IMG/VR virus record: IMGVR_UViG_3300043436_001464
Coordinates: 1-24,550 of that record
Direction: 5' to 3' (one strand)
Source of the DNA: a virus
DNA: 24,550 bases
This document shows, piece by piece, positions 1,246 through 15,412 of the stretch. The stretch's first letter is position 1; every line of letters starts with the position of its first letter. The notes beneath the pieces were generated by a model that saw only the letters and a list, made by a program, of their open reading frames with translations, searched no databases and was not told where the DNA came from. The position numbers were made by a program, and so were the translations under genes.

Positions 1246-2691
1246 ATGTCTAGAAAATTTTTAACAAATATTGATTTAAATAGCAATGAGTTGCGTAATG
1301 GTGTTATTCATAATTTGGCTACAGATCCAGGTACTGGAGTTGCTGGTCAACTTTATTTTAATACCGTTGACAACACGCTAAAAATCTATAACGGAATGGG
1401 ATGGGAAGCTGTTGGGTCTACTGAATTTATTGGAGATGCAGTAAATGATTTACTTGATAGCGGAACTGGAATATCATTAAACTATAATGATGCAGCTAAT
1501 ACGCTAACTATTGCAAATACTGGAGTAACAAGTGTTTCTGGAACTGCTAACGAAGTACTTGTAAGTGCTTCTGCTGGTTCTGTAACAATTGGTCTTCCAG
1601 ATTCAATTACAGCAGATGTTACTGGTGATTTAACTGGTAATGCAGATACTGCCTCTACTTTAGAAACAGCAAGAGCTATTAGCCTTGGTGGATCTCTTAG
1701 TGGAAGTGTTAGTTTTGACGGAAGTCAGAATGTAACAATTACAGCAGATATCGTAGCAGATTCAGTCGCTCTTGGTACAGATACAACTGGTGACTATGTA
1801 GCAGGTGCAAGTGCATCTGGTGCGGGTATCAGTGTGACTGGATCAGGTGGTGAAGGTTCAAGCCTAGTAATTTCCAATACTGGTGTGACATCTCTTTTGG
1901 GAACAGCCAATGAAGTAACCGTTTCAGCATCTGCTGGAGCAATTACAATTGGTCTTCCAGATGATGTAACAATCGGAGGAAACCTTGGTGTAACTGGAAA
2001 CCTAACTGTGAGCGGAAGCGTAACAACTTTAAATACAGAAACTTTACTAGTTGAGGATAATCAAATTACCCTTAATAGCAATGTGACTGGAGTTCCTGCA
2101 GCAAATGCAGGTCTTGAAGTTGAGCGTGGTGATTCAACCAATGCTTCTTTAATTTGGAATGAATCATCAGATAAGTGGTCAGCTGGATTGCTTGGTAGCG
2201 AAACTGCTATCTCTCTTGAAGGTCATACACATGTACCGTCTGATATAACTGGAATACAAGAATATGTTGAAGACACAGTTAGCACAATGCTAACAGACTC
2301 TTCAACAATTGATTTCACATATTCAGATAATTCTACAAGTGCTGGAACATTTACCGCTGATATCATTACAGCTTCAACAAGCTATTTGACAACTGGTAGT
2401 GGTCTTGCTGTTGATATTTCTTCTGTAGAATCAAAGTTAGTAACTGACGGATTCCCAAAGAAATATGCAGTTGGAAACACATCGCTAACATCAACTGGTG
2501 GAGTATGCACATGGACTGTAACACACAACCTTGGAACCAAGGATGTAACAGTTCAGGTATACGAAGTCGCTGCTGATTATGCACAGGTAGAAGTAGATGT
2601 ACAACATACATCAACATCTGCTATAACTATTAAAATTAATAGTGCAACAACAATTAGTGCTGACACATACCGTGTTGTAGTAATTGGTTAA
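1246..2691 (+). CDS. Phage tail fibre protein, cassette A
   Basis: A 481-residue fibre. The N-terminus (KFLTNIDLNSNELRN...GQLYFNTVDNTLKIYNGMGWEAVG, residues 4-57) is the attachment module seen in many phage fibres and shared with the next gene (KFLTGLNL...GELYFNSSASVAKIYQAGAWSVLG). Residues 91-120 and 211-240 are two copies of the unit NTGVTSxxGTANEVxVSASAG followed by TIGLPD, exactly 120 residues apart. Residues about 260-312 carry the fibre signature LLVEDNQITLNSN...AGLEVERGDSTNASLIWNESSDKW, followed by GHTH. The C-terminal 70 residues contain CTWTVTHNLG and resemble the terminal beta module of the preceding gene. The composition, rich in Ser, Thr, Gly and Ala with no membrane segment, fits a trimeric extracellular fibre. 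The start is fixed by the strong ribosome site at 1230-1239. Confidence 0.85.
   Translation: MSRKFLTNIDLNSNELRNGVIHNLATDPGTGVAGQLYFNTVDNTLKIYNGMGWEAVGSTEFIGDAVNDLLDSGTGISLNYNDAANTLTIANTGVTSVSGTANEVLVSASAGSVTIGLPDSITADVTGDLTGNADTASTLETARAISLGGSLSGSVSFDGSQNVTITADIVADSVALGTDTTGDYVAGASASGAGISVTGSGGEGSSLVISNTGVTSLLGTANEVTVSASAGAITIGLPDDVTIGGNLGVTGNLTVSGSVTTLNTETLLVEDNQITLNSNVTGVPAANAGLEVERGDSTNASLIWNESSDKWSAGLLGSETAISLEGHTHVPSDITGIQEYVEDTVSTMLTDSSTIDFTYSDNSTSAGTFTADIITASTSYLTTGSGLAVDISSVESKLVTDGFPKKYAVGNTSLTSTGGVCTWTVTHNLGTKDVTVQVYEVAADYAQVEVDVQHTSTSAITIKINSATTISADTYRVVVIG
1516..1965 (+). repeat. Duplicated 30-residue unit in the 1246 fibre gene
   Basis: Two copies, at 1516-1605 and 1876-1965, lie exactly 360 bases apart in the same frame. 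The protein copies are close to identical at conserved positions. The DNA has diverged at wobble positions apart from an identical block of 18 bases encoding TIGLPD. The duplication is therefore not very recent, or protein selection has kept it. Confidence 0.8.
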
Positions 2692-2704
2692 AGTATAATA
2701 TAAT
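2675..2704 (+). promoter_or_regulatory. Candidate promoter with tandem TATAAT before the giant fibre gene
   Basis: Two overlapping TATAAT hexamers occur at 2694-2699 and 2699-2704, just after the stop of the 1246 gene. TTGTAG at 2675-2680 lies 18 bases before the second hexamer. A start seven bases after the second hexamer would fall at 2711, the first base of the hairpin that follows. Confidence 0.45.
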
Positions 2705-2708
2705 ATGT

Positions 2709-2736
2709 GGGGGGCTAGATTAAACCCTAGCCCCTC
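2709..2736 (+). terminator. GC-rich hairpin between fibre genes (terminator or 5'-end stabiliser)
   Basis: GGGGCTAG (2711-2718) pairs perfectly with CTAGCCCC (2727-2734) around an 8-base loop. The stem can be extended by a G-T and a G-C pair to 2709-2736. In this AT-rich DNA an eight-pair stem with four consecutive GC pairs at its base stands out. There is no run of T after it, so a classical intrinsic terminator is doubtful. The alternative is a protective stem at the 5' end of the transcript for the gene at 2753. Confidence 0.5.
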
Positions 2737-2752
2737 ATATTAGAAGGAAAAA

Positions 2753-5700
2753 ATGGCAAAGAAATTTTTAACAGGATTAAATTTAGTAGTACTGGATACA
2801 GATCCAGCTACTGGCTCTGAAGGTGAGCTATATTTTAATTCTTCAGCATCTGTTGCAAAGATTTACCAAGCAGGAGCTTGGTCAGTCCTTGGTGCAGGTG
2901 GTGGCGGTACAACCGTTAGTACAACAGAACCATCATCCCCAGAAATCGGGGACTCTTGGTATAAAAATGATACTGGTGAATTCTATGTATATGATGGAAC
3001 TTACTGGGTAGAAGTAAATGGAGTTATTTCATTAACTCAAGAAGAAGTTCAGGATTATGTTTCCCCATTATTCGTACATAATAATCATACAAATATAACT
3101 GCTACCTATGATGATATTAATAACAAAGTTTTATTAGAAGGAGTATCTGCAGTATCTGGAAGCTTATCAAATATTGATTCTATTTCATCCCCAGATTTTA
3201 TTCAATTTGATACAACTGCAAATATTGCTCCAGTAACTGGATTACTTGGATGGGACAGTGTTGAAGGTACATTAAATCTTGGACTATCATCCACAAAACA
3301 TATACACCTTGGAGAAGAGTCAGTATACAGAGTAAGAAATTCAACTGGTTCTGCAATATCAAAAGGAACTGCCCTGTATGCATCTGGAGTTGAATCAAGT
3401 GGAAGAATACAAGTAACTCCATATGTAGCAGATGGATCTGTAAGAGAAGTAAGATTTATGGGTCTTGCAACAGAAAGTATTAGTAATGGCATTAACGGAT
3501 TTGTTCAACATTTTGGATATGTTAGAGACTTAGATACAAGAGGAACTTCTTCAACTGCAATAAGCGTTGGAGATGAAACCTGGGGTGCTGGAGATATCTT
3601 GTATGTTCATCCAACTGTTCCAGGAAAACTAACAAACGTAAAACCAACACATGCTGTTGTAGTTGCAATTATTATAATTCGTCATCAAACAACTGGCATT
3701 TTATTTGTAAGACCATCAAGTGGAGGTCATTTAGAAGATATTCACGACATTTTAATTTCTGGATCTGTTCAAAATAATGAAATATTATCATATGATTTAT
3801 CAAATGGTTTATGGATTAATAAAACGGCAGGAGAAGCAGGATTATCCATATCTTCTCATAATCATACTTTAGATAGTCTTTCAAATGTGTCTGCATCTGC
3901 ATCATTAGATAATCAAACTTTAAAATATGATATTACATCTGGAACATGGGAAAATAAGTTTATAGACTCAGTAGAATTTTTAGGATATAATTCTGGATCA
4001 GCTTCAATTCCAGCTTTTAGAGCAGTAAGATCCATTAATAATTTTGATGGACAATATCCTGAAATAATTAATATAGACCTACAAAGTATAGCTGCAATTG
4101 GAATAACAAGTGCTTCTGTTGCAGGTAATTCTTTTGGAAAAGTTGTTACATTTGGAATTTTAAATAATGTAGATACTTCAGAATTTATTGATGGAGATAT
4201 TTTATATGTAAGTGACACTAATGGAAGTCTTGCAACAACAAGACCAACGTCTGGAAATGTTCAAATTATAGCAAGAGTTATAAAAGGTGAAAGTGTAGAT
4301 GGCATTGTTCATGTTTTTAATAGCTCTCAAGAATTTAATTTACCAAATTTAACACAAAATAAAATATGGATGGGGGATGCTGCCAACTATCCATCAGAGC
4401 AAGATCTCTCTACAACAATAATTTCCGAAGGAAGTAATTTATATTTCACAAATCAAAGAGCTATTGATGCAACAATCTCTACTATATCTAGTGCTTCAAC
4501 TTCTGCTGTAACTTATACAAATTCACAAATTAATTTATTAACTACAACAGATATTGAAGAAGGAAATAATTTATATTTTACAAATCAAAGAGCTGTTGCT
4601 GCAGGAAGTGCAACCTATCTTACACAAACAAGTGCCTCAACTACATATCAACAAAAAACTCCAAATTTAACAGAACTATCTTTAATATCTGGAAGTTCTG
4701 GATTCTTAAAAACAGATGGATTTGAAAATTGGTCAATAGATTCAAATACATATTCTTCAACTTCGCACAATCATACTCTAGATAGTCTTACAAATGTTGT
4801 AATTACTGGAACTCCATCAGATGGACAGGCAATTGTTTGGGATACGTCTACTTCAAAATGGGTAAATGAAACAATAGCTTCAGGATCTTCTTATCCAGAT
4901 CAAACTGGTAACAATGGAAAATTTTTACAAACAAATGGTGCAAGTGTATCTTGGCAAAATGTTGATCTAAGTTCTAAGCAAAACTACTCAGTAGTCCTTG
5001 ACACATTAGGATCATCATACGTTAGTCTAGGAGAAGGATCTGGGTTCTTAAAATATACTAGAGGTTTCCTGGGAAGTTCACCAACATGGTCATTAGATAC
5101 AGCTACATATTTAACATCATATACAGAAACATCCACATTAGAAGATGTAACTGATCGTGGAGCAACATCATCAAATGCAATTACTATTAGCAATACAACA
5201 GAGGCTACTAATGCTACTACAGGTGCTTTAATTGTGTCTGGTGGTGTTGGCGTAGCAAAAGATCTTTGGATTGATGGAAATTTACATGTTGCTGGAACTA
5301 CAACAACTGAAAACACTAAAACAGTAGCAACTCATGATAATTTAATTTATTTAAATGCTGCTTTAGATTCAACTATTACAAATGCTGTATATTCAAGTGG
5401 ATCTATTATTTATACTGCAGATAATTTGTATGTTGCTGAAATGGATATTAGAATTACTGGAGTAAGTCCATCAGCATTTAATATATCTTCTGGAGATTTA
5501 TTAACAGTTGCTTCTGCAACCCCTACACAGTTTGTTGTTATAAAATCAGATCCAGGAGCATCTTATATTTCTGGTGGAACTGCACACGCAAAAGAAGAGG
5601 CTAATCCAGATTTAGGATTTTCAGGTGGATATTATGATGCAGGTTATGCTCACGCAGGTTTATTTAGAGACGCATCTGATGGAGTATTTAAATTCTTCCA

Positions 5701-6787
5701 AGGATATACCCCAGAACCAGATGAAGCGGTAAATATTGACACTACTCATGCATCATTTGCATTTGCAGACATACAAATAAGAAATATAAAGCCACAGGGA
5801 TCTGGTCAAAATGATAACTTTGGAATTGGTTATAATGCAACGTTTAATGCTACTGGATTTGCAAATTTTGGTATAGGGCAAAATGCTTTTAGTGGTGGAA
5901 GTGGAACAAACAACTTTGCAATTGGCGATAACTCCTTGGAAAATAATACTGGAGGAAGGAACTTTGCATTTGGTAATTCTGCATTAACTAATAATACTGG
6001 AGACTATAATTATGCAATCGGTAAAGATTCTTTACAAAATAATAGTGGATGGGATAACTACAGTATTGGACCTGCTCTTTATGGAAATACTGGAGACTGG
6101 AACTATGCAGTAGGAACTAATTCTTTGCAGAGTAATACTGGAGACTATAATTTTGCATTTGGGTATCAGGCTGGTCTTAATAATACTGGCTCATACAATG
6201 TTTATATTGGTAAATCAGACGGTCTTTCAACAAGTAATAATATAGTTATTGCAGATAATGAAGGCAATATAAGAGCACAATATTTGTCTGCAAGCTCTGG
6301 ATGGACTTTAGGTAACATAGTTTCTGGAACTTGGAATGGTAGTACAATTGAATATCAGTACGGTGGAACTGGACTAACATCTTTAGGAACTGCTGGTCAG
6401 GTACTTACTGTAAATGCTGGAGCTACAGCAATTGAATGGGCTACCCCGTCAGGTGGTGGTGGTGGACCATCAACAACTACCACATCAATTACAGTAAATA
6501 CTGCAGTAGCAATTGAATCATTTGCAATAGCAACATCTAGAACAGCAGAAGCAATTATTCAAATTACTCAGGGAACTGATTATTATTCATCTAAAATTCT
6601 TTTAATTCATGATGGAACAAATGTAAAAATTACAGAGTATGCAATTCTAGAATCTACAGTGGGGGCGATTCCAGTAACAATTAGCTCTGCCATTAGCGGA
6701 TCAAATGTTGAACTTCGTGCAACTATTACAGATGCAGCAACAACAAGTGCAACTGCAAAGGTAGTAATGACAGAGGTAGCGGTATAG
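2753..6787 (+). CDS. Giant tail fibre with YadA-head-like repeats
   Basis: A 1344-residue fibre, with ribosome site AGAAGGA at 2742-2748. In order: the attachment module shared with the 1246 protein (residues 3-47, KFLTGLNL and GELYFNSS); a second GDSWYKNDTGEFYVYDGTYWVEV module (about 65-90); and a beta domain of about 130 residues, YRVRNSTGSAISKGTALYAS to RPSSGG (about 193-324). A diverged second copy of that domain follows (about 407-528). The SHNHTLDSL motif occurs twice (about 369 and 671) and LYFTNQRA twice (563 and 607). A module around 850-1015 is related to the NQITLNSN region of the neighbouring fibre. Residues 1022-1148 are eight 16-residue N[FY]xxG...NNTG repeats resembling the YadA head solenoid. 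GTWNGSTIEYQYGGTGLTSL...GQVLTVNAGATAIEW lies at about 1192-1235, followed by a Gly-rich hinge and a terminal beta domain of about 100 residues. It acts in the virion, probably as a long trimeric fibre. The stop overlaps the next GTG start. Confidence 0.87.
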   Translation: MAKKFLTGLNLVVLDTDPATGSEGELYFNSSASVAKIYQAGAWSVLGAGGGGTTVSTTEPSSPEIGDSWYKNDTGEFYVYDGTYWVEVNGVISLTQEEVQDYVSPLFVHNNHTNITATYDDINNKVLLEGVSAVSGSLSNIDSISSPDFIQFDTTANIAPVTGLLGWDSVEGTLNLGLSSTKHIHLGEESVYRVRNSTGSAISKGTALYASGVESSGRIQVTPYVADGSVREVRFMGLATESISNGINGFVQHFGYVRDLDTRGTSSTAISVGDETWGAGDILYVHPTVPGKLTNVKPTHAVVVAIIIIRHQTTGILFVRPSSGGHLEDIHDILISGSVQNNEILSYDLSNGLWINKTAGEAGLSISSHNHTLDSLSNVSASASLDNQTLKYDITSGTWENKFIDSVEFLGYNSGSASIPAFRAVRSINNFDGQYPEIINIDLQSIAAIGITSASVAGNSFGKVVTFGILNNVDTSEFIDGDILYVSDTNGSLATTRPTSGNVQIIARVIKGESVDGIVHVFNSSQEFNLPNLTQNKIWMGDAANYPSEQDLSTTIISEGSNLYFTNQRAIDATISTISSASTSAVTYTNSQINLLTTTDIEEGNNLYFTNQRAVAAGSATYLTQTSASTTYQQKTPNLTELSLISGSSGFLKTDGFENWSIDSNTYSSTSHNHTLDSLTNVVITGTPSDGQAIVWDTSTSKWVNETIASGSSYPDQTGNNGKFLQTNGASVSWQNVDLSSKQNYSVVLDTLGSSYVSLGEGSGFLKYTRGFLGSSPTWSLDTATYLTSYTETSTLEDVTDRGATSSNAITISNTTEATNATTGALIVSGGVGVAKDLWIDGNLHVAGTTTTENTKTVATHDNLIYLNAALDSTITNAVYSSGSIIYTADNLYVAEMDIRITGVSPSAFNISSGDLLTVASATPTQFVVIKSDPGASYISGGTAHAKEEANPDLGFSGGYYDAGYAHAGLFRDASDGVFKFFQGYTPEPDEAVNIDTTHASFAFADIQIRNIKPQGSGQNDNFGIGYNATFNATGFANFGIGQNAFSGGSGTNNFAIGDNSLENNTGGRNFAFGNSALTNNTGDYNYAIGKDSLQNNSGWDNYSIGPALYGNTGDWNYAVGTNSLQSNTGDYNFAFGYQAGLNNTGSYNVYIGKSDGLSTSNNIVIADNEGNIRAQYLSASSGWTLGNIVSGTWNGSTIEYQYGGTGLTSLGTAGQVLTVNAGATAIEWATPSGGGGGPSTTTTSITVNTAVAIESFAIATSRTAEAIIQITQGTDYYSSKILLIHDGTNVKITEYAILESTVGAIPVTISSAISGSNVELRATITDAATTSATAKVVMTEVAV
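5816..6196 (+). repeat. Eight tandem 48-base units encoding a YadA-like solenoid
   Basis: Residues 1022-1148 of the giant fibre form eight consecutive units of 16 residues (the sixth has 15). Each starts N[FYV][AGS][IFV]G, and most end NNTG plus two residues; the strand beginning NVYIG caps them. The pattern matches the left-handed solenoid repeats of YadA-type trimeric autotransporter heads and similar phage fibres. The DNA copies are diverged, so this is an old or selected array. Confidence 0.85.
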
Positions 6788-7581
6788 TGGCTAATTTAAA
6801 ATTAAAAGAAGGTATTGATATTAAGCCAAAAGTTAATACTGGATTATCAGATCAAGGATTAAATGTTTTACCTCAACCAGGATTTACAATTTTATATGCT
6901 GGAAATATAACTCAATCTTCTTCTAGTGGAGTAATTACAACAAATGCCCCTGCTGGATGGTATTTATGCAATGGAAATCTTGCACTCATATCAGAAAATC
7001 CAATTTTATTTTCTATATTAGGAACAGATTTTGGAGGAAATGGAACAACAACTTTTGGATTACCAGATTTTACTAATAGATATGCAGGATCTTCATCAGA
7101 TGTAAATGCTAAAACAATTGCTGGAAGTTTTAAACATTCTCATACAAGTGTAAATGTTGCTAATCCAGTAAATCACACTCCAGTATATTCAAGTCACACT
7201 CATAATTCTTTAGATCAAATTAATAGCCAGACATGGCTCCACCTTCATAATCATGCTGCAAACATGGGCGTTTCGACAACTTCTGGTGGTGGTTCTACTA
7301 GTGGTAGACGCAACCAAACTGGTAATTTTCTTGCTACAGGCGGTAGTCATACCCATAATTCAGTTGGTAATTCCGTAACTCTTAATACAAATAATTCAGA
7401 GCACTACCATTATGAGTCATCAGCTAACTTTAATAGTCAAATTACCAGAGTATTTGATGGTGATTTAGGATTAATCCATCACCAACATCCTTATTCTTCA
7501 ACACCAACTGCATCTTTTCAAGAATCTACTGATCAAAACATTAATAGCATAAGATTAAATTTTATAATAAGAGGTGGATAA
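6787..7581 (+). CDS. Tail collar domain protein 1 with six HxH motifs
   Basis: A 264-residue protein. The N-terminus MANLKLKEGIDI is shared with the next two genes and probably docks on the same partner. Residues about 54-100 match the phage tail collar domain: PAGWYLCNGNLALISENP...TTFGLPDFTNRYAG. The remainder is Ser/Thr/Asn-rich with six HxH motifs (residues 117-119, 137-139, 152-154, 188-190, 206-208, 232-234). In the T4 gp37 tip, HxH motifs from three chains bind iron ions along the trimer axis, so a metal-stabilised trimeric tip is a fair inference. The ending SIRLNFIIRGG is the usual terminal strand of this family. The GTG start overlaps the stop of the giant fibre (TAGTG), with AGAGG at 6772-6776 upstream. 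Confidence 0.82.
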   Translation: MANLKLKEGIDIKPKVNTGLSDQGLNVLPQPGFTILYAGNITQSSSSGVITTNAPAGWYLCNGNLALISENPILFSILGTDFGGNGTTTFGLPDFTNRYAGSSSDVNAKTIAGSFKHSHTSVNVANPVNHTPVYSSHTHNSLDQINSQTWLHLHNHAANMGVSTTSGGGSTSGRRNQTGNFLATGGSHTHNSVGNSVTLNTNNSEHYHYESSANFNSQITRVFDGDLGLIHHQHPYSSTPTASFQESTDQNINSIRLNFIIRGG

Positions 7582-7583
7582 TA

Positions 7584-8375
7584 GTGGCAAATTTAAAAGT
7601 TAGTGAAGGAATAACTTTGGGAGACAATGCAAATCCATTCTTTATGCCAGGAGATATTGTTTCAATGTTTACTTCAACCATACCTGATGGATGGATATTA
7701 TGTGATGGATCTGAGTATTTACAAATATCCTATCCAGACTTATTTAACTCAGCATCAACATATTATAATGATGGAACAGAGACTCCTGGACACTTTAGAG
7801 TGCCAAATTTAAGTGGCAGTCTAGCAAATCCAGTTCAGCCAGTTGGGGTAGTTGGAAGCGACAACTCTGGAAATATTTCAGGTGGTGGATATTATAACCA
7901 CACCCATTCAATGACTTATACAGGAATTTCAGAAAGTACTAATGATTTAAATAGTCATTTTCATTATAATAGTCTTATTACTGGAGGAAATATACAAGAA
8001 AATTATACACATCTTCATTCTCAAGGTGGTGCTAGTGGTGGTCCAACAAATACCACTAATGCTTCTCAAATATTTAGAGGAAACCTTTCATCTACTTCAA
8101 CATTTGGTCATAGTCACAGTGTAACTGCTTGGACTATAGCTGGTATAAATGCACTTTCTGCTGTAGACGTTAATTCTACAGCAATTCTTCATAAACACAA
8201 TGGAAACAATAATTTAAACGACTCCTCCGCAACTGGAGGAGTTACTGGTAACACTAATTCAACTACAGACACATCTACCGCATCCCACTATCATACAGCT
8301 ACATATGTAGCAATTCTTAGCCAACCTTCTTCTCAATTGCCAACACTTTATGTAAAGTATATGATAAAGGTATAA
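7584..8375 (+). CDS. Tail collar domain protein 2 with six HxH motifs
   Basis: A 263-residue paralogue of its neighbours. The N-terminus MANLKVSEGITL is followed by a collar domain at about residues 33-80 (PDGWILCDGSEYLQISYPDLF...GHFRVPNLSGS). A Gly/Asn/Thr-rich shaft carries HxH at 106-108, 125-127, 143-145, 176-178, 203-205 and 235-237, and the end is TLYVKYMIKV. A GTG start is used with AGGTGGA at 7571-7577, two bases after the stop of the previous gene. The region between HxH motifs differs strongly from the neighbouring copies, while the ends and collar are kept, as expected for receptor-binding proteins under diversifying selection. A perfect 8-base-pair inverted repeat lies inside the gene at 8221-8242. 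Confidence 0.82.
   Translation: MANLKVSEGITLGDNANPFFMPGDIVSMFTSTIPDGWILCDGSEYLQISYPDLFNSASTYYNDGTETPGHFRVPNLSGSLANPVQPVGVVGSDNSGNISGGGYYNHTHSMTYTGISESTNDLNSHFHYNSLITGGNIQENYTHLHSQGGASGGPTNTTNASQIFRGNLSSTSTFGHSHSVTAWTIAGINALSAVDVNSTAILHKHNGNNNLNDSSATGGVTGNTNSTTDTSTASHYHTATYVAILSQPSSQLPTLYVKYMIKV
8221..8242. repeat. Perfect inverted repeat inside collar gene 2
   Basis: ACTCCTCC (8221-8228) and GGAGGAGT (8235-8242) are perfectly complementary around a six-base loop. The 3' arm contains a Shine-Dalgarno-like GGAGG, but no start codon follows at a useful distance. There is no T run, so it is not a terminator. The codons read through it as ordinary coding sequence. Confidence 0.6.
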
Positions 8376-8377
8376 GT

Positions 8378-9172
8378 ATGGACAATTTAAAAGTAAAAGA
8401 ATCAATAGAGTCTTCAACAGAGACTAACCTTTTTATTCCAGTCGGATCAATAATTGCTAAGGCTATTCCCTATACTAGCTTATCTTTATACGATAGTGAG
8501 TTAAAAATTCAAGAGTATGGATGGTCTCCTTGTGATGGAAGATCTATTAGTAGAACTAGTTTTTCTAATTTATGGAATGTTTTAAGAGATGGAACATCTT
8601 TTAGTCCATATGGAAATGGGGATGGCTCTACCACTTTTAATTTACCAGATTTAAGAACTCAAAGAAGGTTCATTCTTGGAAATGGATATGGAGAACTTAT
8701 AAATGCTACATCTACACATTCTCATTTGTCATCTTCACTAAATACTTCAAATTTTTTGTCAAACAACGTTCCTCAGCAGCATTTACATGAATATAATACA
8801 AACGGTGTTTCTGTTCAGGTAGACTCTCACCTACATACCGCTTCTTCTGGCGGAGCAACAGTGACTGGAAATTCAAATTCACAAAATTCCAGTCTTTCAA
8901 CTTCAGGAACCACTAGTTCTACTGGCGTAGGAAGTCATTCTCATGGTTTAGCTTCAAGACCAACTACTATTCCTACTGGAAATGCATCCTTTAACGTAAA
9001 TCCTCATAGCCATGGGGGTCATCAAGTAAAATTATTGCACAATGATAATGCATCCCATAATTCTCACATACATTCTTCAGCATCTGTTAATCCTACAGCA
9101 TTTCCAAATAGCACCAGCGTTTCATTGTCCGAACCATATTATGTAAATGTGTTATACTTTATAAAATTATAG
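8378..9172 (+). CDS. Tail collar domain protein 3 with six HxH motifs
   Basis: A 264-residue third member of the tandem family, starting MDNLKVKESIES. The collar domain spans about residues 22-104 and is longer than in its neighbours because of an insertion (YTSLSLYDSELKIQ) before YGWSPCDGRSISRTSFSNLW...STTFNLPDLRTQRRFILG, the most canonical collar of the three. HxH motifs are at 114-116, 135-137, 151-153, 187-189, 210-212 and 230-232. The C-terminal EPYYVNVLYFIKL is the standard closing strand. AAGG at 8367-8370 serves the ATG at 8378, two bases after the previous stop, so the three genes form one translational block. The role is a likely trimeric receptor-binding tip or short tail fibre, by analogy with T4 gp12/gp37. 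Confidence 0.84.
   Translation: MDNLKVKESIESSTETNLFIPVGSIIAKAIPYTSLSLYDSELKIQEYGWSPCDGRSISRTSFSNLWNVLRDGTSFSPYGNGDGSTTFNLPDLRTQRRFILGNGYGELINATSTHSHLSSSLNTSNFLSNNVPQQHLHEYNTNGVSVQVDSHLHTASSGGATVTGNSNSQNSSLSTSGTTSSTGVGSHSHGLASRPTTIPTGNASFNVNPHSHGGHQVKLLHNDNASHNSHIHSSASVNPTAFPNSTSVSLSEPYYVNVLYFIKL
9150..9158 (+). promoter_or_regulatory. Candidate extended -10 promoter in the end of collar gene 3
   Basis: TGTTATACT fits TG, one base, then a five-of-six -10 hexamer. It lies in the last codons of the collar gene and would start a transcript near 9165, ahead of the gene at 9191. No -35 element was identified. Confidence 0.35.
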
Positions 9173-9190
9173 TAGAAAGATTTATTCAAA

Positions 9191-9904
9191 ATGTTAAAGA
9201 AAATAATTAACTTTATTCCTTCAAGTAGCCATGAAGAAGGAATTTTTGATCCACCAGTTCTAACAAAAAAAATAATTCCAGAATGGTATGTTAAACAAAA
9301 TAAGTATACTGATGGAAGAAAAAGTCATAGCATTGAAAATGGCAACGTAAACCATACAATAAAAGGTTGTATGCCAGTATTTGATATTATGACTGCTGGA
9401 TATACAATAACCCTGCCAGCAGACGTGTTGTTTAGTAAAGAGGATGACGGTTCTGTAGCTACAGTTTGGAGTTCAAACTCTATATCTTTAATAGAAAGTC
9501 ATCCAATTGAGCAGTACAATGAGTTTAATACATCAAAAGAATTTTTTGAAATAGGATTTAAATTTATTAATCCTTGGATAATAAAAACTCCTCCAGGATA
9601 TTCTTGTCTTTTTATACATCCATCTTATAGAGATGACTTACCATTTCAAACTTTATCAGCAGTAGTTGATACTGACAAACACCCTATATCTGTAAACTTC
9701 CCATTTTTTATTAGAAAAGATTTTGAGGGTATTCTTCCTATGGGAACTCCAATTGTTCAAGTTATTCCATTTAAAAGAGATTCCTGGAAGCATGTTGTTG
9801 AAAAAAATACAAGAATTGATCTTGTTAAAATTTGGAAAAAGGCTGAAGGAAAAATGTCTAATAGATATAAAACATTTTTTAGATCAAATAAGGAATGGAG
9901 CTAG
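9191..9904 (+). CDS. Conserved phage protein of unknown function (possibly DUF6065)
   Basis: A 237-residue soluble protein, without signal peptide or membrane segment. Notable features are IPEWYVKQNKYTDG near residue 29, TIKGCMPVFDIMTAGYTI at 56-73, NPWIIKTPPGYSCLFIHP at 127-144, DLPFQTLSAVVDTD at 149-162, VNFPFFIRKDFEG at 168-180, and GTPIVQVIPFKRDSWK at 185-200. This pattern recurs in proteins of environmental phages; I think it corresponds to DUF6065, but that assignment is from memory. The Trp-, Pro- and Gly-rich motifs suggest a compact enzyme-like or capping beta fold, but no catalytic set is recognised. The ribosome site is weak (AGAAAGA, 10 bases upstream). It follows the fibre tips and is followed by a short gene that it may be coupled with. 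No function is assigned. Confidence 0.7.
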   Translation: MLKKIINFIPSSSHEEGIFDPPVLTKKIIPEWYVKQNKYTDGRKSHSIENGNVNHTIKGCMPVFDIMTAGYTITLPADVLFSKEDDGSVATVWSSNSISLIESHPIEQYNEFNTSKEFFEIGFKFINPWIIKTPPGYSCLFIHPSYRDDLPFQTLSAVVDTDKHPISVNFPFFIRKDFEGILPMGTPIVQVIPFKRDSWKHVVEKNTRIDLVKIWKKAEGKMSNRYKTFFRSNKEWS

Positions 9905-9906
9905 TT

Positions 9907-10188
9907 GTGGATATAGTTGAAACCAATTTTAAATATTTAGGCTTCTTTTTAAATCATCATATTTGGAAAGTAAAAGACCTTATTGAAGACGAAAATGCTT
10001 ATCTTTTTAGATCTGCTGAAGAAGAAGCCTTAAGAAAATCTGCTATTGAAAAGTTAGAAAAATTAGGGCTTTCAAAAGAAGAAATTGCTGTTTTAATCCC
10101 TCCATACATCCTATATGACTGTGAAGATTTTTCAACTAAAGGTCCAAACTTTCAATATCTTATAGACAATATAACCAACATGGTATAA
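9907..10188 (+). CDS. Small hypothetical phage protein, mainly helical
   Basis: A 93-residue protein if it starts at GTG 9907, which lies six bases after GGAG (9897-9900). An in-frame ATG at 9895 would add four residues and overlap the previous gene, but its AAGGA directly abuts the codon, so I prefer 9907. The middle (about residues 25-65) is charged and helical (EDENAYLFRSAEEEALRKSAIEKLEKLGLSKEEI). It is followed by VLIPPYILYDCEDFSTKGPNFQYLIDNI. I do not recognise the family. Its position immediately after the 9191 gene suggests a joint role. The last codons contain the TGGTATAAT promoter of cassette B, and the TAA stop is part of that element. Confidence 0.65.
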   Translation: MDIVETNFKYLGFFLNHHIWKVKDLIEDENAYLFRSAEEEALRKSAIEKLEKLGLSKEEIAVLIPPYILYDCEDFSTKGPNFQYLIDNITNMV

Positions 10189-10189
10189 T
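10181..10189 (+). promoter_or_regulatory. Extended -10 promoter of fibre cassette B
   Basis: TGGTATAAT is identical to the element at 396-404 upstream of cassette A. It overlaps the stop codon of the preceding gene, and a transcript would begin near 10196, just before or at the ribosome site AAGGTG (10195-10200). The start of the following gene is at 10208. Confidence 0.6.
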
Positions 10190-10207
10190 AATTTAAGGTG
10201 ATTAATA

Positions 10208-10567
10208 ATGGCATTTCCAGGTACATATAATTTTAACTATTACAATGGAGACTCTTTTGAGTTCTTTGTTTATCCAAAAACTTCTAATGGTCAAACTTTT
10301 GACTTAGAATCTTACTCTGCAAAATTTACAATTGCTACCGCCAGAGGTTCTGAAGAGGCTATAGTTCTATCATCAACTGCAAGCACACAGGTGTTGGCAA
10401 CAATTGAAGATGATAATCACGTTGTTTGTGAAATATTACCTGCAGGTGGAGCAACTTTGCAAAGTTCATCTTATGTTTATGACGTTCAAATACAAAACGC
10501 AGGTACTGGAAAAGTTTATACTTTATTAACTGGAACAATATCTGTTACTCAGGATATAGCAGGGTAA
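10208..10567 (+). CDS. Ig-like beta-sandwich tail/baseplate protein, cassette B
   Basis: A 119-residue all-beta protein, paralogous in size, strand pattern and ending to the gene at 437: YVYDVQIQNAGTGKVYTLLTGTISVTQDIAG here against HVYDLEIISPSNIVDRLIEGTFNVTPEVTR there. Both have an early aromatic, polar strand (here YNFNYYNGDSFEF) and a long central strand set. The likely role is a baseplate or tail-surface adaptor with an Ig-like (BppU N-terminal type) fold. This is inferred from the pattern. The start is supported by AAGGTG seven bases upstream. It is the first gene of a cassette that reproduces the order of cassette A. Confidence 0.72.
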   Translation: MAFPGTYNFNYYNGDSFEFFVYPKTSNGQTFDLESYSAKFTIATARGSEEAIVLSSTASTQVLATIEDDNHVVCEILPAGGATLQSSSYVYDVQIQNAGTGKVYTLLTGTISVTQDIAG

Positions 10568-10569
10568 AA

Positions 10570-11157
10570 ATGGCTTTAACAACAGTCGTATCAAATGAAG
10601 ATTTAGTGGTTTTAGGACCACCCTCTTCTGTTGAAGTTTCTGTTGACATTGGTCCAAAGGGTGAACGTGGTGCTAGTTTTTATACTGGCTTTGGAGATCC
10701 TAATGCTAACTCTTTATTCTATAGCACTTCAGATATTCCAAAAGTTGGAGATCTTTATTTAAGAAGAGATCTTGGTGCAAACTATGGTGTTATTTATAGA
10801 TTAGTTACAGTTACTGGCGGTACTTCTTGGCAATCAGTTTTAAAATTTCAGCCAATAACTTATAACCTATCTGATAGACCATCTTTTAATTCTGGAGTTG
10901 CATCTGTAACTTTTCCTTTAGAAGATTTTTATTTTAATGCTCCAATAGATTTAGATGTTGAAAATATTATAATTCAGGCTACAGTAGAATTAGATAATCC
11001 TGTAATGCTTTCAATATCAAATAAAGAAATTAAGACTGTTTCTTCAGTAAAAAGCTTGGTAACAGAAATAACTGCTGCACAACTCAGCTCTGGCTCTATT
11101 TCAATGCTAAGTGGATCTATAGCAATAGTAAATCTAGGATATTCATTAGGAGTTTAA
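10570..11157 (+). CDS. Tail fibre linker protein with GPKGERG motif, cassette B
   Basis: A 195-residue protein. The N-terminal segment VVSNEDLVVLGPPSSVEVSVDIGPKGERGASFYTG carries a short collagen-like Gly-x-y motif (about residues 28-35) in the same place as SGPQGGRGTG in the gene at 781. Then comes a GDLYLRRDLGANYGVIYRL...TSWQSVLKF motif (about 56-92), the counterpart of GDFFLN...GWGTPTD. The C-terminal 100 residues are strand-rich (VASVTFPLEDFYFNAPIDL, VENIIIQATVEL) and differ from the cassette A copy, so the C-terminal domain has probably been exchanged. AGGG lies five bases before the ATG. The gap to the next start is one base, so translation is probably coupled. Confidence 0.72.
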   Translation: MALTTVVSNEDLVVLGPPSSVEVSVDIGPKGERGASFYTGFGDPNANSLFYSTSDIPKVGDLYLRRDLGANYGVIYRLVTVTGGTSWQSVLKFQPITYNLSDRPSFNSGVASVTFPLEDFYFNAPIDLDVENIIIQATVELDNPVMLSISNKEIKTVSSVKSLVTEITAAQLSSGSISMLSGSIAIVNLGYSLGV

Positions 11158-11158
11158 A

Positions 11159-11845
11159 ATGGCAGAAGATATTAGTTTAAGTAAAAACAATGGTGTCCCA
11201 TGGGCAATTGATTTTGATACAAAAATTCCATCACTTGGAGAAGATGCAAATATTCAAGATGCATTAAAAATATTTTACTTTGGCAATGCTGATAAAAATC
11301 AAGTTTTTGGAAATAAAAGCATCTATCAACATTTTTTAACAATTGAATCAATTACAGATTCTTTAAGTACTGATATTTTTAATCATGACGATACCGATAC
11401 TGATACACATGGTATTGGGGCAGATAATAGCGTAGTTGGAACTGGAACTACACAAACTCTAACAAATAAAAGATTAGATTCTCCAAAAATAAATGAAAAT
11501 GTTATTCTTACTGCTACAGCTACAGAATTAAATATCCTAGATGGTGCAACACTTTCTGTTGCAGAGTTAAACAAGCTTGATGGAGTAAATTCTAGCACTG
11601 CTGATTTAAATGTCTTGTTTGGAGTTTCAGCCAGCATCTCTTCAACACAACTAAACTATTTGTCTAGTGCTAGTGCAAATATTCAAACACAACTTAATAC
11701 AAAGTCTCCACTAGCATCTCCAACTTTTACAGGGTCTGTAAATTTGCCAGACGATACAAGTTTTGGTGGAAAAAGATTATTTATACAGGCAACACAGCCT
11801 TTATCTGCTGACAATGGAGATGTCTGGATTAAGATAGGTAGCTAA
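11159..11845 (+). CDS. Phage tail fibre protein with ELNxLDG repeats, cassette B
   Basis: A 228-residue protein. The N-terminal 60 residues (NNGVPWAIDFDTKIPSLGEDANIQDALKIFYFG) form a probable attachment domain. Next comes DTDTHGIGADNSVVGTGTTQTLTNKRLDSPKINENV, a common fibre signature (TQTLTNKxLxSP). Residues about 119-165 contain four related units, ATELNILDGATLS, VAELNKLDGVNSS, TADLNVLFGVSAS and STQLNYLSSASAN, the repeat typical of phage fibres. The end includes LNTKSPLASPTFTGSVNLP, another standard fibre motif, and GDVWIKIG. It is shorter than the cassette A fibre. AGGAG (11148-11152) lies six bases before the ATG. It is likely a trimeric fibre shaft or adaptor. Confidence 0.8.
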   Translation: MAEDISLSKNNGVPWAIDFDTKIPSLGEDANIQDALKIFYFGNADKNQVFGNKSIYQHFLTIESITDSLSTDIFNHDDTDTDTHGIGADNSVVGTGTTQTLTNKRLDSPKINENVILTATATELNILDGATLSVAELNKLDGVNSSTADLNVLFGVSASISSTQLNYLSSASANIQTQLNTKSPLASPTFTGSVNLPDDTSFGGKRLFIQATQPLSADNGDVWIKIGS

Positions 11846-11846
11846 A

Positions 11847-13244
11847 ATGCCAACATTTAATATTGGTGATGATAGTGGTGGATATTATAATTGGCGTGGA
11901 CTAAACGTTGATCCAAACGTTGTAGGATCTTCGGTTGTAACTGGAAACTGGCTGGTATCAAGTTTTAGTATACAGATGGCAACTAACACATCTGGTGGAA
12001 CAGCTAAGGGAACTATTTGGAATTCTGCTGGCACTGCAATATGGAGATCTGGGGCAACTGCAAACACTCCAACAGACTCAAGTCCACCATTTACATCAAA
12101 AACATTTTCTCCAAACATATATCTCCCTGCTGGAACTTACTATTTTGGTTTTTCAAAACCAGAAGCTTCTAGTATTTATTGGGACTGTGTAAATGGAAAT
12201 AATACTAGTAGAGTTGGAAATGCTGTTGATGGAGACTTGACTACTGGTGGAACTGGAACTATCTATCGTAGACTTTGTGGAAAAATAAGTTATACAGATG
12301 TCTATGTCCCAACAATGTCATCTTGTACTGCAACTGCAAATATTGGTTCCATATCAGTTTCATGGGCAGCATCTTCTGACGGAGGCATGGGAATAACCTC
12401 TTATTCAGTTTATAGAAATAACGACCCTAATCAACTAGTTTATAGTGGAACTAATACATCTTTAACTGATAGTGTTGGCAATGGTGTTGGAGCATATTAT
12501 GTGGTCTATGCTTTTAATGCAGTTGGAACATCTAATGCAGCAGTTTCTTCAACAGCCACAACTCCAAGTGTCCCAACTATGTCATCTTGTACTGCAACTG
12601 CAAACGTAGGATCTATATCCGTATCTTGGGCAGCCTCTTCCAATGGTGGTAATGCAATTGACTATTATCATGTTTATAGAAATGGAGGATACCTTGGTCA
12701 ATATACAGGAACATCTTTAACAGATAATGTTGGAAATGGTTTTACAGCTTATTATCAAGTGTATGCTCATAATGGTGTAGGATGGTCTGGTGCTGCAACT
12801 TCATCAACAGTTGCAACTCCAGTCCTTGCAGGTTCCCCAGCAACTTTAGTTGCAGTACCAGATGTAACAGAAATAGTTTTAACATGGACAGCCCCTACTA
12901 CGGGTATTCCAACATCTTATAAACTAGAATTTTCTACAGATAACACAAACTGGACTCAAATATACAATGCTCTTTCTCCTTTAACTTACACACATACTGA
13001 ACGCATTCCAGCAACTTTATATTATTATAGAGTTTCTGCAATATCTGCTCCTGGTCAAAGTCCATTTAACAATGCTCAAGCTGAAACTATTGGGGGATAT
13101 GTAAGATACTTTGATAGTTTAGGATTTGTTGATTATGTTTTACCAGAATATTATAGTTCTTCTGCAAGTGCCTGGAAAAAAGCATCTGCCTTTTCATACG
13201 AAGATGGTATTTGGGTTCCTGGAGACTACCCTCCAGCAACTTGA
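11847..13244 (+). CDS. Virion surface protein with three fibronectin type III domains
   Basis: A 465-residue protein. Residues 1-152 form an N-terminal beta domain (GGYYNWRGLNVDPN, WLVSSFSIQMATNTSGGTAKGTIW, LPAGTYYFGFS) resembling jelly-roll carbohydrate-binding modules. Three fibronectin type III domains follow: about 154-240, 242-325 and 327-416. They are marked by W in VSWAASS or LTWTAP, and by YSVYR, YHVYR and YKLEF strands. The first two are near-copies, both starting VPTMSSCTATAN. The C-terminal 49 residues end WKKASAFSYEDGIWVPGDYPPAT, a fibre-end motif. Such domains on phage surfaces are commonly linked to weak carbohydrate binding. It follows cassette B by one base and ends at a promoter, so it probably closes this transcription unit. 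Confidence 0.82.
   Translation: MPTFNIGDDSGGYYNWRGLNVDPNVVGSSVVTGNWLVSSFSIQMATNTSGGTAKGTIWNSAGTAIWRSGATANTPTDSSPPFTSKTFSPNIYLPAGTYYFGFSKPEASSIYWDCVNGNNTSRVGNAVDGDLTTGGTGTIYRRLCGKISYTDVYVPTMSSCTATANIGSISVSWAASSDGGMGITSYSVYRNNDPNQLVYSGTNTSLTDSVGNGVGAYYVVYAFNAVGTSNAAVSSTATTPSVPTMSSCTATANVGSISVSWAASSNGGNAIDYYHVYRNGGYLGQYTGTSLTDNVGNGFTAYYQVYAHNGVGWSGAATSSTVATPVLAGSPATLVAVPDVTEIVLTWTAPTTGIPTSYKLEFSTDNTNWTQIYNALSPLTYTHTERIPATLYYYRVSAISAPGQSPFNNAQAETIGGYVRYFDSLGFVDYVLPEYYSSSASAWKKASAFSYEDGIWVPGDYPPAT
12306..12825 (+). repeat. Tandem duplicated fibronectin type III units
   Basis: The DNA starting at 12306 and at 12570 (period 264 bases, 88 residues) is almost identical over the first 35 or so bases and similar afterwards. 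This indicates a domain duplication more recent than the one that produced the third, diverged domain at about 12825-13095. Confidence 0.8.
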
Positions 13245-14670: not shown

Positions 14671-15201
14671 ATGGCTAAGATATATATAAAAAGTGATGAA
14701 TATTCGGAACCAGTTAAAACTTTTTTAAAAAGATATATTAGACAAGAAACTCCTTACAACTTAGCGGTCCACGAACAAAATGCTGACATATGCATTAGTC
14801 TTTTTACCCCAGAATATCCAGCAGAACAAAGATTTTTTGCATATCTTTATAACAATGACGAGAGCATGGAAGAGCTTGCAAATAAAATTTATTATCAATG
14901 CTCTAAAGCAGAAATTATGACTAATAAAATTTCTAAAAGATCTATTCCAAGAAATGAATATGAAATAGATTTTAAATGTCCTACACTTTGTATAAACCTA
15001 ACGAATGATTCTATAGAAATAGATGAAGAAGTTTACGCTTTGGTAATTGGTCAAGGTATAGTTTCTTACCTTAATCCTGGAACTGTATTTGATACTTTTT
15101 CAGTAAAAGATAAAATTAAAAAACCAGGGGATAAAAGTTTTGTTAATAGAAAGTATGTTCAACAACCAACAAATAATTCAAAACTTTTATTTAAGAAGTA
15201 G
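14671..15201 (+). CDS. Degenerate amidase-like protein of unknown function
   Basis: A 176-residue soluble protein from ATG 14671. An in-frame ATG at 14653 overlaps the previous gene and would add six residues. Strand and helix order resembles the C-terminal two thirds of Amidase_3 N-acetylmuramoyl-L-alanine amidases. NADICISLFTP matches the place of the zinc-binding ADLFISIHAN strand, EQRFFAYLYNNDESMEELANKIYYQ that of GTETYYY...LAxxI, and FKCPTLCINLTNDSI...EVYALVIGQGIVSYL that of the MPAVLVEvGFiSN...A.AIA.GI end. The metal-binding His and the catalytic Glu expected at those places are absent (Phe and Asn here), as is an N-terminal GHGG. If the resemblance is real it is a non-catalytic relative. 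The comparison was made by eye and is tentative. The 3' end overlaps the convergent minus-strand gene by 11 bases. Confidence 0.65.
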   Translation: MAKIYIKSDEYSEPVKTFLKRYIRQETPYNLAVHEQNADICISLFTPEYPAEQRFFAYLYNNDESMEELANKIYYQCSKAEIMTNKISKRSIPRNEYEIDFKCPTLCINLTNDSIEIDEEVYALVIGQGIVSYLNPGTVFDTFSVKDKIKKPGDKSFVNRKYVQQPTNNSKLLFKK

Positions 15202-15412
15202 ATAAAGAAATATATCCTTTAATTCTTTCTATCAAATTAATTCCTGGATAAAAAGATGATCTGCATCCAAGGCAGTAAAAGAAAACTTTATCGCTGCTGT
15301 CAACTCTAGAAATAATAGTATCATCAGGATCAAACTGACATTCTATTTTTAATGCTTTATTATTTTTTACAAGATCGTTATAATGATTAACTTCTTGAAT
15401 TGTTAGATCCAT
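15191..15412 (-). CDS. Small Cys-containing protein, only minus-strand gene
   Basis: A 73-residue protein read from 15412 down to 15191. On the minus strand the ATG is preceded by AAGGAGA with six bases of spacing, a good ribosome site, which makes this a real gene and not a shadow. The sequence has an N-terminal helix (QEVNHYNDLVKNN), then LKIECQFDPDD (Cys25) and FYCLGCRSSFYPG (Cys47 and Cys50), a pattern consistent with a small metal-binding knuckle, and ends ERIKGYISLS. Similar small phage proteins with xFDPDDxx and a CxxC exist, with no known role. It converges with the gene ending at 15201 (11-base overlap) and diverges from the reductase, so it needs its own promoter, probably TGATAAAAT read on the minus strand at 15461-15453. 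Confidence 0.72.
   Translation of the reverse strand: MDLTIQEVNHYNDLVKNNKALKIECQFDPDDTIISRVDSSDKVFFYCLGCRSSFYPGINLIERIKGYISLSTS

Follow-up and report, generated by a model that had tools for sequence, protein, structure and literature searches.

The stabilising stem-loops of the E. coli ompA and B. subtilis aprE leaders place a hairpin at or near the 5' end of the mRNA with an accessible ribosome site behind it, and the function established elsewhere among bacteria for 5' hairpins is to block 5'-end-dependent decay (PMC7509114, PMC3997798). For M. smegmatis, a further study reports that deletion of 5'-UTR hairpins of esxB left the half-life unchanged, two such hairpins being without stabilising effect, and that, transcriptome-wide, 5'-UTR hairpins did not correlate with half-life (PMC11728522). 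Promoter-coupled stem-loops are also known, namely the PeSLs of T4-like phages (PMC4503421). In these phages, variable regions contain stem-loops that lie in intergenic gaps right next to a promoter box. Also comparable are the I-shaped or U-lacking hairpins of actinobacterial 3' ends, GC-rich, without a U-tract and close behind a stop codon, and the ESAS/SAS of cluster K mycobacteriophages, inverted repeats that lie shortly before start codons (PMC3203893).

The element studied here, located at the junction between two fibre-like genes (A and B) in the window, that is, the whole 24,550-nt record, resembles all of these in part. Its hairpin is followed by a ribosome site as in ompA and aprE; unlike them, the position of the 5' end is predicted from the spacing of a TATAAT box, and the region is one of phage structural genes in a probable actinobacterial host. 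We consider the host to be probably an actinobacterium because the portal matches Streptomyces phages (the best 25 of 284 matches all belong to them, with 51.9% at best) and because WhiB scored above the cut-off in 9 of 22 relatives' contigs (4 of 12 plus 5 of 10), while among 14 control genomes only Corynebacterium glutamicum gave a match. As in the PeSL cassettes, the putative promoter box would lie right beside an intergenic stem-loop in a variable region, but here the portal points to Streptomyces-type phages, most variants of the hairpin lack a terminator U-tract, and instead of many copies per genome no contig has more than a single strong model match: model R1 gave one strong match (E <=1.3e-4) in each of 15 of 18 contigs and 4 of 8 records, most of them its own building sequences or neighbours of these, and among its further matches one reached E 0.015 in contig G003, the rest lying above E 0.03. 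From the I-shaped 3'-end hairpins it differs in that 24 of 38 variants have a TATAAT ahead of the stem, in most cases at a distance of 5 nt. Unlike the cluster K elements, its stem letters vary, and the 13-bp SAS GGGATAGGAGCCC had no match in the window with up to 2 mismatches. No description of such an element in actinobacteriophages was found in the literature searched. As a control element of a familiar kind, the hairpin may shield or mark the 5' end of a message.

Gene A (1246–2691, plus strand) encodes 481 amino acids ending in DTYRVVVIG, has its TAA stop at 2689–2691 and matches phrog_8309 and phrog_38707. The giant fibre-like gene B (2753–6787, plus strand, ATG at 2753) encodes 1344 amino acids and resembles gene A in its N-terminal region; no Pfam match was found for it, and megablast of window positions 1500–4500 against phages gave no match. 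With its stop codon gene B measures 4035 nt, in agreement with the 4-kb mRNA proposed in a preliminary description of this sequence; this figure is a lower limit, since the genes from 2753 to 13244 follow one another with gaps of 19 nt or less and the packed run behind B (6787–13244, plus strand) may share its transcript. Directly behind gene B there are three consecutive proteins with tail-collar domains (PF07484; 6787–9172). Upstream of gene A, the C-terminus of an ORF at 781–1227 matches an HNH endonuclease family, preceded by weak tail-fibre matches. Further along the window, the longest gap among plus-strand genes (211 nt) is filled by a 73-aa minus-strand ORF (15191–15412) which may be a real gene.

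The gap between A and B spans 61 nt and holds two overlapping TATAAT boxes, the hairpin and a ribosome site (Shine-Dalgarno-like AGAAGGA, 2742–2748, plus strand). Folded from upstream, the hairpin occupies 2705–2740 of the plus strand, with 14 pairs between its 5' arm (2705–2718) and its 3' arm (2727–2740) around the 8-nt loop ATTAAACC (2719–2726); the stem reads GTGGGGGGCTAG/CTAGCCCCTCAT. Its MFE of -24.4, compared with -15.3 (sd 3.2) in dinucleotide shuffles, was equalled by 1 of 200 shuffles, and no other 40-nt fold in the window, on either strand, is as low. The shuffle test and this window-wide ranking, together with the covariation described below, rule out a chance hairpin. The 8-bp GC-rich stem of the preliminary description is indeed present (2711–2718 with 2727–2734), as a part of the full 14-bp stem that would remain alone only if transcription began at 2711. 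It had also noted, correctly, that no T run follows the stem and that a ribosome site and ATG lie just downstream. The tail after the stem, ATATTAGA, lacks a U-tract, so that of the features of a canonical intrinsic terminator the GC-rich hairpin is there and the U-tract right after it is absent. Given that most variants share this lack (at least 5 T of 8 in only 6 of 38), we reject a canonical terminator. A search of the whole window with Rfam gave no match above the gathering score; BTnc005 reached 20.6 bits, far below its cut-off of 174.8.

Related junctions were collected with four queries: both ends of the A protein, the N-terminus of B, and a set of aligned B N-termini. Among 53 loci followed from gene A (55 minus L246 and L254), the hairpin was present in 35 and absent in 16, with L203 running off the sequence end and L211 incomplete. 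Another set, in which 58 of 80 loci were looked at by eye, gave 26 with the hairpin, several of them sharing contigs with loci counted in other sets, and 32 without it, in most of which A and B nearly abut. Two broader scans did not extend the collection: the scan of genome contigs with A1 yielded 76 stretches, none confirmed as a relative, and the exact-motif scan for GGGGCTAG..CTAGCCCC in viral contigs was discarded, its yield of at least 120 stretches being near chance by a rough estimate. From the hairpin-bearing junctions we hand-picked 38 letter-distinct gap variants, which are not phylogenetically independent, and 25 of them entered the covariation alignment (A2). Other stems in relatives include GCTGG/CCAGC, GGGGGTAG/CTACCC and GGGGATGC/GTGTCCCC, among more. 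In the 25 aligned variants, 85.1% of the cells are standard pairs, compared with at most 58.0% in slid registers, and 23 cells are altered on both sides, a figure that averaged 8.9 in shuffles and was not reached in any of 500. The sense strand gives the better fold in 37 of the 38 variants, with one tie, and AAA occurs within the loop in 32 of 38. Covariation of the stem in related phages, which the preliminary description had named as a check, was thus found. It is the shape of the hairpin, and not its letters, that is conserved, and an RNA structure is under selection.

A TATAAT box precedes the stem in 24 of the 38 variants, in 22 of them as A[G/A]TATAAT at the same place as in the window and in two others (L347 and L356) besides. 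Within the 22, the distance from box to stem is 5 nt in 12 variants, including the rewritten stems of L010, L012, L317 and L337, and 1–2 nt in seven, where additional A-T pairs lengthen the stem; L030 has 8 nt, and L316 and L336 have 12 nt each. The sixth nucleotide after the box is a purine in 20 of 22, and the stretch TAAAGTATAAT is letter-identical in L225, L238, L316 and L317 despite their rewritten stems. The gap contains no TATAAT in 12 of the 38 hairpin-bearing variants, and in L344 and L346 the hairpin lies upstream of a TATAAT placed 6 nt before the AUG, which is why we assign it there to the 3' side of gene A. In the window, the preliminary description took the second TATAAT (2699–2704, plus strand), which is present as reported, to set transcription start at 2711. 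This placement is probably off. The first box (2694–2699, plus strand) is the conserved -10 candidate, pointed to by the sequence, the variants and the strand bias of the motif, while the second is intact in 12 of the 22 variants that have the first. This, and the spacing of the first box to the stem, make us prefer a predicted start at 2705–2707 (plus strand), the sixth to eighth nucleotide after that box and the base of the full stem. Inspection found no convincing -35 or TG element before either box of the window, and the fibre TATAAT site was absent from the output of a consensus promoter scan.

The motif shows a strand bias in these phages. Across 287 co-directional gaps from eight records (the window and contigs of seven relatives, some of them akin to one another), we counted 124 TATAAT and 27 ATTATA. 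Around the 124 boxes, position -3 is T in 60% and position -2 is G in 61%; the next start most often lies 9 nt (13 of 124) or 6 nt (11 of 124) away. These values suggest a promoter rule for uncultivated actinobacteriophages, TGNTATAAT with a start about 6–7 nt further on. Behind relatives of gene A, 12 loci without the hairpin include nine (L247–L253, L255, and L256) in which precisely 6 nt separate a TATAAT from the following AUG and for which leaderless messages are predicted, and three without the box; the remaining four of the 16 hairpin-less loci have no TATAAT by eye. The nine look like leaderless starts from their spacing, but the gene after A there may not be a relative of B, which weakens a reading of them as B promoters. 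A strong hairpin was found at 10 of the 124 TATAAT sites, compared with 5.1% of 2834 random gap positions, and we dropped as support any general rule that a strong hairpin follows TATAAT.

Our leading reading, to which we commit only tentatively, is that the gap contains gene B's own promoter and that its transcript begins with the hairpin, in a protective role. The -10 box at 2694–2699 would drive gene B, the transcript would begin at about 2705–2707, and its first bases would fold into the 14-bp hairpin of 2705–2740, followed by B's ribosome site. Such a hairpin would leave no single-stranded 5' end for decay of the 5'-end-dependent type (RNase J or RNase E), would prevent pairing between the leader and the ribosome site, and might at the same time close off messages of gene A on their 3' side, so that roles at the 5' end of B and at the 3' end of A could coexist. 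That a -10 box is followed by a 5'-end hairpin and not by a canonical terminator had already been proposed; the proposal gains from the TATAAT before rewritten stems, the covariation, the few U-tracts, the strand bias of TATAAT and a second gene with a similar layout, while its start, box, and stem length needed correction. The further suggestion that the stem partly insulates the ribosome site receives weak backing: the calculated cost of opening the Shine-Dalgarno sequence and AUG is 1.33 kcal/mol with the hairpin and 1.35 without the leader, and 3.91 (sd 1.59) kcal/mol with the hairpin letters shuffled. Access to the ribosome site is thus not raised over that without a leader, and what the hairpin avoids is the cost that shuffled leaders bring. 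Spacing fails to separate a 5'-end from a 3'-end role. Across 35 of the 38 variants (L347, with 7 nt in the spacing table, is left out) the distance from stem to start codon varies less (sd 2.6) than that from stop codon to stem (sd 4.5), but the extra tightness comes from the 12 TATAAT-less variants (linker before the stem 8.3 on average vs 15.9; stem to start 15.0 vs 17.3), and within the 23 TATAAT-bearing variants of these 35 the two are equally tight (2.0 and 1.8). This argument for the 5' end is weakened as a result.

A possible explanation, which we find more doubtful, is that the hairpin forms the 3' end of the gene A message, either as a U-less (I-shaped) terminator or as a barrier to 3'-to-5' exonucleases once termination of the Rho type or by read-through has taken place, which would set A higher than B. 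It fits all 38 variants, including L344 and L346 and the 12 without TATAAT, and has actinobacterial precedents: in a Streptomyces Term-seq study 353 of 535 structured 3' ends lack U (PMC8269248), and I-shaped terminators no more than 50 bp from stop codons are described for mycobacteria (PMC12288462). Termination by the mycobacterial RNA polymerase without a U-tract is, however, disputed (Ahmad 2020 vs Czyz 2014, as cited in PMC12288462). Consistent with it are also a run of at least 4 T in 8 of the 38 fibre variants and, in contig G001, a hairpin without U-tract or TATAAT between the SSB and DNA polymerase genes (70169–70218). However, elsewhere in the same phages hairpins that precede a TATAAT mostly have U-rich tails (at least 5 T of 8 in 14 of 18, vs 6 of 38 for the fibre hairpins, the two counts beginning at slightly different bases), and the U-less fibre hairpin is therefore of a different type. 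For hairpins without a TATAAT the figure is 6 of 28, and the hairpin behind the major head gene (label from G001) has 4 T of 8 in G001 and 6 in its counterpart in G003. Moreover, in the lineage of the window the putative B promoter lies upstream of the hairpin, which as an efficient terminator would cut short the transcript of B itself. It is the negative M. smegmatis precedent and the weak effect on the ribosome site that keep our trust in a protective 5' end tentative and leave this 3' end as a possibility of some weight. The weakened arguments from spacing and from the nine leaderless-type loci lowered that trust slightly, raised the standing of the 3' end and made the wider conjecture given below less likely.

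Two further explanations have less in their favour. Processing between cistrons, by which A and B would be co-transcribed, an endonuclease would cut the AU-rich linker and the hairpin would protect one or both fragments, would explain the TATAAT-less variants and why the window matches a promoter consensus so poorly, the TATAAT being a mere part of the linker. We regard it as unlikely, as TAAAGTATAAT is kept letter by letter beside rewritten hairpins in the four variants named above, and TATAAT is strand-biased in these phages and has leaderless spacing behind relatives of gene A. Very improbable, in our judgement, is an element acting in the DNA, such as a palindromic operator where transcription starts or a conserved joint for recombination between fibre alleles, similar to the T4 promoter-stem-loop cassettes. 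When three segments were compared among 21 loci, the junction was the most conserved one in 116 of 210 pairs; its median identity is 0.859, compared with 0.843 for the gene A stretch and 0.587 for the gene B stretch behind it; the window and L040 share the junction at 0.979 with B at 0.496, and TTGGG..CCC palindromes lie near the predicted lysin start. Nevertheless, G-U pairs and the better folding of the sense strand in nearly every variant point to RNA and not DNA, rewritten stems are ill-suited to a single sequence-specific binder, and the conserved ends of the flanking proteins could alone explain a conserved patch.

If transcription of gene B starts at the base of the stem, as in the reading we favour, this junction offers dozens of naturally rewritten 5' hairpins, for which the leaderless-type relatives could serve as controls. 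It would then allow asking directly whether 5' structure protects actinobacterial mRNA, for which one reporter test was negative (PMC11728522). In G001 (95913) and G003 (78727), a similar layout of TATAAT and hairpin, with different stems and behind different upstream genes, is found ahead of an M23 endolysin gene. Among 49 distinct lysin upstream regions (79 of 80 loci used, L466 left out), TATAAT is present in 43, of which 11 have a strong hairpin and 32 a weak one (-4.0 to -8.8 kcal/mol), at distances of 0–7 that mix extended A-T pairs with the core stem. The covariance model matched these sites weakly (E 0.015 in G003 and only E 1.4 in G001), hence the parallel rests on layout and gene homology. 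A wider conjecture, which we think unlikely, is that actinobacteriophages possess a 5'-end module free in sequence and conserved in shape, a TATAAT whose first transcribed base opens a hairpin, placed on selected genes (giant fibre, M23 endolysin, and possibly Hsp20) whatever gene lies upstream, with leaderless starts in sister lineages; evolution would toggle between a hairpin leader and no leader, and either would spare the message an exposed single-stranded 5' end.

Genes in the contigs were called with a simple ORF script that misses or mis-calls some of them (e.g., the one preceding the lysin in G001). A small TTGGG...CCCTAA palindrome, which could be a hairpin or an operator, lies a few nucleotides after the box in many of the 43 regions with TATAAT upstream of M23 endolysins (among L425–L504), behind different upstream genes. 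In G018 (41859–41940, L403), TGCTATAAT runs straight into a hairpin upstream of a gene with a match to phage Hsp20, possibly a temperature-responsive leader. The strong U-less hairpin of G001 at 70169–70218 lies at the SSB stop codon, and a comparable one occupies G002 38413–38462, both before a DNA polymerase gene (assigned by PHROGs in G001 and by sequence likeness in G002).
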